From: Flavobacteriales bacterium
Lineage (GTDB): Bacteria; Bacteroidota; Bacteroidia; Flavobacteriales_D; Sanyastnellaceae
Direction: 5' to 3'
DNA length: 40,155 nucleotides
Assembly (NCBI GenBank): GCA_030729695.1
Contig: JANQWV010000011.1
Span: 1-40,155 of the forward strand
Positions 10,107-11,310 of the stretch are shown one piece after another. The notes under the pieces were generated by a model. It had not been told where the DNA came from. It searched no databases and saw only the letters and a program-made list of their open reading frames with translations. Position numbers and translations under genes: made by a program. How positions within the stretch are numbered: position 1 is the first letter of the stretch; every line of letters begins with the position of its first letter.

Positions 10107-10200
10107 TTGAACTTCGTTGTTCCTATTTCGTAATTGGAAAATCGTAGATTTTATTCCTACGAAGTAATTCCTATTTCATAATTGGAACTGCGTTGTTTGT
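10107..10200. repeat. Intergenic hairpin repeat, copy A
   Basis: Begins right after the fabI stop. It contains GAACTTCGTTG (10109-10119) and a hairpin at 10136-10157: AAAATC-GTA-GATTTT with outer GG/CC bases. It then continues with TAATTCC, TTCATAATTGG and AACTGCGTTG. About 53 bases (10131-10183) align without gaps to 40081-40133, with only a few differences. Related words occur at 11205-11310. It is low in coding potential and shows no transposase or CRISPR features. Confidence 0.75.
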
Positions 10201-10246: not shown

Positions 10247-10588
10247 TCATTTGAATTCTCTCGACAATATCGATTCGCATGCAGTCTTTAATTCATTCAA
10301 TTCAAAAGCTGTGTGATAAATACGCTCTAATTTCACATTGTGATATTCGTGAATAATGAAATTTCGAAACGATTTTGGTAAGAACCATGGGAAATCATAT
10401 CGTCTGAGTATTTCTGGAGAAATAGCCCCTGCGGCTTCACCGATAATGAGGAATTGATATTGAACTGCACTGTGAAGCATCACATCGTTTTCAAATTCAA
10501 GCAGCGTTTTATCATTTACAAACGCTTGAATTCGAGAAATAGCAGTCAGTATATCTTCAACCCTTGGCTTGTCTCTTGGCTTTGACAT
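10247..10588 (-). CDS. hepT: HepT-like HEPN ribonuclease toxin
   Basis: Toxin of a HepT/MntA type module (DUF86 family): a HEPN-fold RNase that cleaves RNA when free. The 113-residue protein has the diagnostic RX4HXY motif, Arg75-His80-Tyr82 (RNFIIHEY); in characterised systems the motif Tyr is poly-AMPylated by MntA, which silences the RNase. The start ATG at 10588 (MSKPRDKPRV) is preferred over a further in-frame upstream start at 10618, giving a 32-nt overlap with the mntA end. This toxin-second order with overlap is typical. I infer the activity from the motif; it is untested here. Confidence 0.88.
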   Translation of the reverse strand: MSKPRDKPRVEDILTAISRIQAFVNDKTLLEFENDVMLHSAVQYQFLIIGEAAGAISPEILRRYDFPWFLPKSFRNFIIHEYHNVKLERIYHTAFELNELKTACESILSREFK

Positions 10589-11183
10589 ACACAACTTCTT
10601 TTTCTCGAACCACTTCAACAGCAGCAGATGGCTTCAACTGTCCTTCTTCAATTAAATCTACTTTTCGATTCAACAATTCTTCAAGGTCATGCTGCATTTT
10701 CAGAATGTCGAACATGGATATTTTCTTCTTCGCCACAAACTGAATCAAAAGATCAATATCACTTTTCGCTGTTTCTTCTTTTCTTACAAATGATCCAAAT
10801 AAACTCACTTCTTGAACAACATCAAGCTCTGCGAAATAAGCCTGAACCGTCTTTTTAATATGCTCTTTTTCTGAATCGTGTTTGGTTTTGTATACCACTT
10901 GTTTTTCCAACAATTTCAAAATAGACAACGCATCGTCTTCATGCTCCAATTGCTTATAGAGCTTTTCAGCCAAGAAAACCTTGTGTAGCTCATGAATATC
11001 TTTTTTATAAAGTATAGCCAATTGCCTCAGGACATCCTTCGTTACCGGACGCTTTCCATTCTCCATCTTACTCAATATGGCCTGGTCAATCTCCAAATAG
11101 GCAGCTACCTCGCGTAAGGTTTTACCACTTTCTTTTCTGAGGTCTTGCAAATACTTGCTAATATCTAATCTTGACAATTTCAT
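10557..11183 (-). CDS. mntA: XRE-MntA fusion: HTH domain plus minimal nucleotidyltransferase antitoxin
   Basis: Antitoxin partner of hepT, 208 residues. Residues about 6-65 form a Cro/C1-type helix-turn-helix (SGKTLREVAAYLEIDQAILS, then KMENGKRPVTKDVLRQLA). Residues about 105-200 form the MNT nucleotidyltransferase with GSFVRKEETAKSDIDLL (Gly130-Ser131, Asp142 and Asp144) and a third acidic residue at Asp176 (KVDLIEEG). MNT antitoxins transfer AMP to the HepT tyrosine; the fused HTH probably binds the operon's own promoter. The ATG at 11183 is used rather than a TTG at 11192. A 7-bp inverted repeat overlaps the -7 box just upstream. Confidence 0.88.
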   Translation of the reverse strand: MKLSRLDISKYLQDLRKESGKTLREVAAYLEIDQAILSKMENGKRPVTKDVLRQLAILYKKDIHELHKVFLAEKLYKQLEHEDDALSILKLLEKQVVYKTKHDSEKEHIKKTVQAYFAELDVVQEVSLFGSFVRKEETAKSDIDLLIQFVAKKKISMFDILKMQHDLEELLNRKVDLIEEGQLKPSAAVEVVREKEVVYVKAKRQAKG

Positions 11184-11204
11184 TCTTGACAAATATAGTC
11201 AAGA
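11184..11204 (-). promoter_or_regulatory. Operator-like palindrome overlapping the mntA-hepT -7 box
   Basis: TCTTGAC (11184-11190) and GTCAAGA (11198-11204) form perfect 7-bp arms around a 7-nt centre. Read on the minus strand, the last base of one arm plus the centre spells TATATTTG, an exact -7 element (11190-11197), ending 6 nt before the ATG. A dimeric XRE repressor bound here would block polymerase, which fits the HTH fused to MntA. The binding itself is inference. Confidence 0.7.
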
Positions 11205-11310
11205 AACTGCGTTGTTCCTACTTCGTAATGGGAAACAGAGATTTTATTCCTCCCGATAGCTATCGGGATTAGTAATGCCTGATTCATAATTGGAACTGCG
11301 TTGCTTTGAG
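11205..11310. repeat. Intergenic hairpin repeat, copy B
   Basis: Contains the family words AACTGCGTTGTTCCTACTTC, GATTTTATTCC, TTCATAATTGG and AACTGCGTTG seen at 10107 and 40010. It also includes the perfect 18-bp palindrome at 11251-11268. The AAAATC/GATTTT hairpin of the other copies has decayed here. It continues into TCGC-TTT-GCGA (11312-11322), a mini-hairpin similar to the units in fdhD. Confidence 0.65.
11251..11268. repeat. Perfect 18-bp palindrome TCCCGATAGCTATCGGGA
   Basis: Self-complementary over all 18 bases, in the intergenic region upstream of the toxin-antitoxin operon. From memory, similar palindromes recur in Flavobacteriia genomes as REP-like units. No transposase is nearby. 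Confidence 0.7.

Follow-up and report, generated by a model that had tools for sequence, protein, structure and literature searches.

The palindrome at the start of the xre-mntA gene of a Flavobacteriales bacterium (minus strand, 11183..11205) serves, with a probability that we put slightly below nine in ten, as the operator through which an MntA-HepT (type VII-like) toxin-antitoxin operon is autorepressed. This reading is drawn from the sequence of the window, i.e. the whole stretch of 40,155 nucleotides analyzed here, and from its homologs. Most likely, the XRE helix-turn-helix (HTH) domain fused to the MNT nucleotidyltransferase antitoxin reads TTGAC-N7-GTCAA and represses its own promoter, because the operator is kept together with the HTH, is missing from genes that encode MNT alone, and varies with residues of the HTH. 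The antitoxin contains a DNA-binding domain, and a conserved predicted operator lies over its promoter; the autorepression circuit proposed in an earlier note on this DNA is thus supported, at the level of sequence, by the joint conservation of operator and HTH.

According to this model, a dimer of the XRE domain, which forms the N-terminus of the antitoxin, would bind TTGAC-N7-GTCAA on the -7 box, and the occupied operator would block RNA polymerase because it sits on this box. A second dimer would probably settle at a third half-site 15 bp further downstream and cover the gene start. The MNT domain would AMPylate and disarm HepT; since MNT and XRE are parts of the same polypeptide, one protein would set both the toxin activity and the output of the operon.

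The operon, its palindrome and its promoter

The first gene, xre-mntA, encodes 208 amino acids on the minus strand (10557..11183, ATG at 11183). Pfam assigns HTH_3 to residues 12-66, and NTP_transf_2 and Polbeta, both above cut-off, to residues 112-202 (10578..10850, minus strand), where GSF...SDID and a later aspartate (D176) are found; the fusion of an XRE HTH with an MNT antitoxin, already read from this gene in the earlier note, is hence confirmed. The second gene, hepT (10247..10588, minus strand), codes for a HEPN RNase toxin with the motif RNFIIHEY (Rx4HxY) and matches HepT-like PF01934 above cut-off; it starts at 10588 and shares 32 nt with the end of xre-mntA. The window therefore combines an MNT catalytic motif with an adjacent downstream HepT-like toxin that possesses Rx4-6H and a nearby tyrosine, as is characteristic of type VII MntA-HepT. 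The NCBIfam equivalog cut-offs are missed by both proteins, by MntA with 56.5 of 60 bits (NF047752) and by HepT with 28.9 of 60 bits (NF047751). An AlphaFold2 model of XRE-MntA, computed from an input of four near-identical relatives, was too poor for use (mean pLDDT 42.5).

The palindrome TCTTGAC-AAATATA-GTCAAGA lies exactly where the earlier note had placed it (11184-11204), and pairing continues by one base on each side, which yields a perfect 8/8 palindrome at 11183-11205, TTCTTGAC-N7-GTCAAGAA. The TCTTGAC arms with their 7-bp spacing are palindromic as described there, but the conserved half-site is shorter and comprises TTGAC only: comparison of homologs delimits the core to 11186-11190 and 11198-11202, and within the genus of the window, the T at the outer end of the left 7-bp arm is not conserved. 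By itself the palindrome is unremarkable and proves little. The window contains 63 perfect inverted repeats of 7 bp whose gap is 3-12 nt, versus 20-36 in five shuffles; the weight of the palindrome comes from its conservation in homologs. The exact 14-base palindrome pattern occurs once in the window, and TTGAC-N7-GTCAA occurs twice in the 2.14-Mb genome of the organism, namely at the main operator and at a site that, judged by eye, is apparently coding. As only one copy is placed at a promoter, an autoregulator acting in cis is suggested, and XRE-MntA looks like a single-target regulator.

On the minus strand, the palindrome overlaps a Bacteroidetes -7 box, TATATTTG (11190..11197, read from 11197 to 11190), which is recognized from the sequence and the published consensus (PMC6847099); this overlap had been claimed before and holds. 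The right half-site begins with the G of this box, which both elements share. In Flavobacterium johnsoniae, the promoter box spans -12 to -5, as stated in the available portion of PMC6847099. If the G of TAnnTTTG is accordingly taken as -5, transcription is predicted to start at 11185 on the minus strand, with a leader of about 2 nt. The leader of 6 nt given in the earlier note corresponds to the gap between the -7 box and the ATG rather than to a 5' UTR. Very short leaders are a minority in F. johnsoniae, where 87% exceed 10 nt (PMC6847099, same portion), and 5.5% of the examined mRNAs of F. psychrophilum are leaderless according to the accessible text of PMC9723704. A -33 TTTG was looked for by eye upstream of the operon and none was seen.

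Two other interpretations of this region were set aside. A reading of the palindrome as an RNA hairpin was rejected, because the predicted transcript holds just a part of one arm. On the plus strand, a sigma-70-like promoter (TTGACA-17-TATAGT, 11/12) can be written over 11171-11199; it arises from the half-sites and was discounted because the phylum uses a different promoter consensus. This match points towards the gene of a neighboring FAD enzyme, which is probably a coincidence. Furthermore, a 14-bp intergenic repeat, AACAACGnAGTTC(A), is present at 10109-10123, 10185-10199 and 11205-11218 of the window and at 15 places in the genome of the organism (3 for the reversed control). In one relative (L001, 3398-3620), about 16 tandem copies of AACAACGnAGTTC(A) form an array whose end adjoins the operator.

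Conservation of the operator with the helix-turn-helix

Homologs were searched for by protein in 395 and 299 genomes and by a 13-row profile in 114, 395 and 385 genomes, in draws that overlap. The number of candidates scored per genome was limited, and the best-scoring 20-30 places of each search became loci, supplemented by 26 hand-picked regions; the resulting set is a best-hit sample rather than a census. Duplicates (L001-L004), identical proteins, an odd fragment (L031) and regions shorter than 120 nt were dropped. By profile search, the final set consists of 30 fused genes, 71 XRE-only genes (no MNT in frame) and 11 MNT-only genes; a frameshifted copy (L047) was assigned to the fused genes by hand, and a copy from the genus of the window that is ended by a contig edge (L038) is counted among the 71. 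The 30 fused genes are distinct and mostly 28-42% identical to the gene of the window. The catalytic motif GS...SDxD, a pattern of our own that the protein of the window also contains, is found in 28 of them, and 24 are directly followed by a HepT with Rx4HxY; among the remaining six, our script found no open reading frame in three cases (one of them at a contig end) and a frame without the motif in the other three.

The operator was sought in 180 nt around the HTH start (-150/+30). Homologs with the same HTH but an unconserved operator had been named in the earlier note as the observation that would speak against the circuit; instead, conservation held, with TTGAC-N7-GTCAA present exactly in 20/30 fused genes and with at most one mismatch in 25/30 (shuffle means 0.00 and 0.29). 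Among the XRE-only genes, the corresponding values are 25/71 and 44/71, versus shuffle means of 0.015 and 0.545. None of the 11 MNT-only genes possesses the site, either exactly or with one mismatch, nor does it occur near the gene start of 20 further MNT-only genes, for which a wider scan gave one match with one mismatch (L182), inside another reading frame. Upstream of 166 other open reading frames from the same loci, no match at up to one mismatch was obtained. The signal persists when only HTHs below 75% identity are retained (fused: 14/24 exact, 19/24 with up to one mismatch; XRE-only: 14/38 and 22/38). In the fused set, enrichment is restricted to a gap of 7, while a gap of 6 is also present among XRE-only genes (5 exact, 9 with up to one mismatch).

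A third half-site, absent from the earlier note, lies downstream of the right arm at a distance of 15 bp, within codons 3-5 of xre-mntA (direct repeat D2, 11169..11177, minus strand, with GTCAA at 11175 to 11171). In fused genes with a clear palindrome, GTCAA recurs exactly at +15 in 10/25 cases, all other extra offsets remaining below 3; in the non-redundant fused set it does so in 4/19, and the next offset reaches 1. The signal is weaker in the XRE-only set, with 7/44 exact occurrences versus 4/44 at +5, and with 3/22 versus 2 for the next offset in its non-redundant part; when one mismatch is allowed, another offset outnumbers +15 among XRE-only genes (13 vs 7). Many relatives have no third half-site.

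An open reading frame follows 62 of the 71 XRE-only genes. Its product matches a C5 methylase in 14 cases, N6_N4_Mtase in 9, N6_Mtase in 6, Eco57I and BRO in 5 each, D12, ResIII and HSDR_N in 4 each and ThsB TIR in 1, where one protein may match several families. XRE-only genes thus often precede restriction-modification (R-M) genes, so the HTH relatives without MNT often occupy the place of a defense-gene controller. This neighborhood, together with the weaker second site beside the main one, speaks for a C-protein-like activator-repressor, i.e. an XRE domain that acts as an activator at low concentration and as a repressor at high concentration. We regard this as unlikely for the operon of the window. 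Classical controllers have two palindromic operators, according to the available text of PMC3115060, whereas here the palindrome coincides with the -7 box and an additional half-site follows downstream, an arrangement in which activation is hard to picture; moreover, exact matches to an extra GTCAA or TTGAC are not enriched upstream in the fused set.

That the same site stands at many XRE-only relatives would also fit a target of another XRE regulator acting in trans, the fused HTH having lost its role. Such a scenario is very improbable, however: no second HTH of the family was found by protein search (E<=0.001) in the genome of the organism, which is 88.6% complete, the other match to XRE-MntA covering its MNT part only, and the recognition helix of the fused HTH in the window retains the near-invariant residues. 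Repression of its own promoter by XRE-MntA remains the preferred reading.

Several relatives are worth recording in their own right. One fused homolog (L100) has the exact operator core, but neither the MNT motif (by our pattern) nor a downstream HepT, and is perhaps a leftover regulator; the frameshift of L047 lies in the HTH region, and its operator core is likewise exact. Genome G487 contains two near-identical fused copies and a distant fused paralog (L037, L065, L066) with the same operator core and is a natural case for cross-regulation. A cut-off copy that is 95% identical comes from a record titled Chryseobacterium gleum (L004); what appears to be the same contig belongs to a genome (G671) placed in the genus of the window, so the name looks wrong. 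In 4/7 relatives scanned, a tRNA-Pro(GGG) gene immediately precedes xre(-mntA) (L046, 1334-1407; L066, 1848-1921; L068, 1653-1726; L048, 1345-1418), as if the module entered genomes at this tRNA.

Recognition-helix residues and operator variants

TAnnTTTG falls exactly on one arm of the palindrome in 24/30 fused and 50/71 XRE-only genes. Two classes are distinguished: in that of the window, the box occupies the right arm (TTGAC-TAnnTTT-GTCAA), and in the other the left arm (TAnnTTTGAC). Binding to the operator would cover the -7 box in either class, and the position of the palindrome relative to the promoter shifts between them.

Five fused genes fall outside the core. Three (L101, L102, L121) have a perfect TGGAC-N7-GTCCA and one (L103) has TTGAC-N6-GTCAA; for the fifth (L105, helix SPRILSK) no such palindrome was found. 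In four of these five misses, a related palindrome coincides with an altered recognition helix. For a broader comparison, operator classes were called tolerantly, with a leaning to the consensus and blind to the protein, and set against the HTH alignment. Among 91 HTH columns, column 31 (z 12.6) and column 32 (z 9.5) predict the operator variant best, followed by a column with z 5.0; the ranking was made on 61 classed HTHs of less than 75% identity with z-scores that ignore relatedness. These columns correspond to Ala35 and Ile36 of the window (codons at 11076..11081, minus strand), at the N-terminus of the recognition helix, positions which we take to align with the specificity residues of the 434 repressor.

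Where both arms read TTGAC, the residue is Ala in 23/28 cases (Gly 3, Thr 2), and where a single arm does, it is Ala in 5/7. TGGAC is accompanied by Ser (11/12), the N6 gap by Ser-Thr (5/5), TTGCC by Thr (4/5) and TTGTC by Ala-Asn (2/2); ATGAC occurs once with Ala and once with Ser. Counter-examples exist: Ala with one TGGAC arm (L008, L049, L120), Ser with a TTGAC arm (L014), with ATGAC (L060) or with TTGCC (L124), and Thr with TTGAC (L035, L099, L127). The HTH tree, which is poorly resolved, requires at least 13 changes of the operator class and 14 of the residue, and a test of independent pairs yields 1 pair on supported branches and 10 on all branches. Given this resolution and the single supported pair of the strict test, descent may account for a part of the signal. 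A similar link between residue and base is reported for the C.Csp231I group in the available text of PMC3115060.

The shared G of right arm and -7 box, and a -7 consensus that is strong across the phylum in the accessible portions of PMC6847099 and PMC9723704, would suit a palindrome kept merely as a promoter feature for sigma binding rather than for the HTH, but this is the least credible explanation, as the site is missing from all 166 upstream regions of other reading frames, shifts relative to the promoter in the left-arm class, and has arms that vary with the HTH residues.

Known controllers and the wider family

An antitoxin that represses its own operon is a well-known principle. The type VII MntA-HepT system SO_3165-3166 of Shewanella oneidensis resembles the operon of the window in gene order, with the antitoxin gene first and the HepT gene second, and, according to the part of PMC4621449 at hand, in the MNT motif and in the Rx4-6H of HepT. 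The same part describes that SO_3165 binds its own promoter at two palindromes near -10 and -35 and that promoter activity increased 1.6-fold upon deletion. It also describes SO_3165 as having no predicted DNA-binding domain and its palindromes as dissimilar, whereas the antitoxin of the window has a fused XRE domain and its operon one clear predicted operator. The C proteins C.AhdI and C.Csp231I share with XRE-MntA the XRE HTH and short palindromic half-sites near the promoter; their operators are pairs of the type GACT-tat-AGTC or pairs of CTAAG-N5-CTTAG (PMC3115060, available text). The operator of the window is unlike such C boxes in that it consists of TTGAC-N7-GTCAA plus one half-site rather than of two palindromes, and its partner gene is hepT, while C proteins adjoin R-M genes. 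CR.NsoJS138I of Niabella soli (Bacteroidetes) is likewise a controller HTH that is fused to an effector and regulates its own promoter, but its effector is a restriction enzyme and it is an activator with C boxes, as far as the accessible text of PMC3850674 tells. RptR is also an autorepressor of a defense operon (R-M island), and its repeated sites cover the -10 box; it differs, in the portion of PMC12255303 available, by a dimer that binds in a single major groove at a 6-bp TAGCTA site. Our literature search, whose scope ended short of the control-protein survey of Sorokin et al. (2009), retrieved neither an XRE-MNT fusion with an operator nor a controller family with TTGAC-N7-GTCAA. We regard the XRE-MNT fusion, together with an operator family tied to HTH residues, as a new variation on antitoxin autorepression.

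The family was also approached from the operator side. A reverse search with TAnnTTTGAC-N7-GTCAA in 203 genomes gave 49 places among the matches listed, versus 39 control matches by our count, so many of these places are due to chance. Downstream of 10 of the 30 places that were read lies a gene of the XRE-MntA HTH family, in several cases one that the set already contained; at one place (L170) the contig ends and the downstream gene is out of view. The stricter pattern TTTTGAC-N7-GTCAAAANG matched in 0/200 genomes and is too strict to inform. One scan of viral contigs revealed a single weak partial relative, and no palindrome was seen by eye in stretch 2850-3240 of L144. Phage records searched for relatives gave no match, and plasmid records two partial ones; that from Chryseobacterium oryzae combines TTGCC-N7-GTCAA with a DPTILSK helix (by eye) and fits the relation of residues and operators described above. 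The family profile matches C.AhdI, C.BclI and the R-M controller 3clc. On the poorly resolved HTH tree, the fused proteins are scattered (15 changes; shuffles 14-23, mean 19.3), as expected if domains had been exchanged.

On this basis, a wider proposal can be made, although we are more inclined to doubt it than to adopt it: XRE plus a TTGAC-type operator might be a portable self-control cassette of Bacteroidota, joined repeatedly to R-M, BRO, TIR and MNT-HepT genes; one or two residue changes where the recognition helix begins would have altered its specificity. The code would read Ala for TTGAC, Ser for TGGAC, Ser-Thr for a 6-bp gap, Thr for TTGCC and Ala-Asn for TTGTC. If the proposal is true, modules of the same class in one genome would regulate each other.

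In the accessible part of Makarova et al. (2009), where HEPN is taken as the antitoxin, HEPN is considered an unlikely transcription regulator and a DNA-binding component in trans is suggested. The fusion described here puts the DNA-binding component into the antitoxin chain itself, and its predicted site is given at base resolution. More broadly, the family amounts to a small residue-to-operator table that is testable by a few gel shifts, and it suggests that defense modules of Bacteroidota share one control part.
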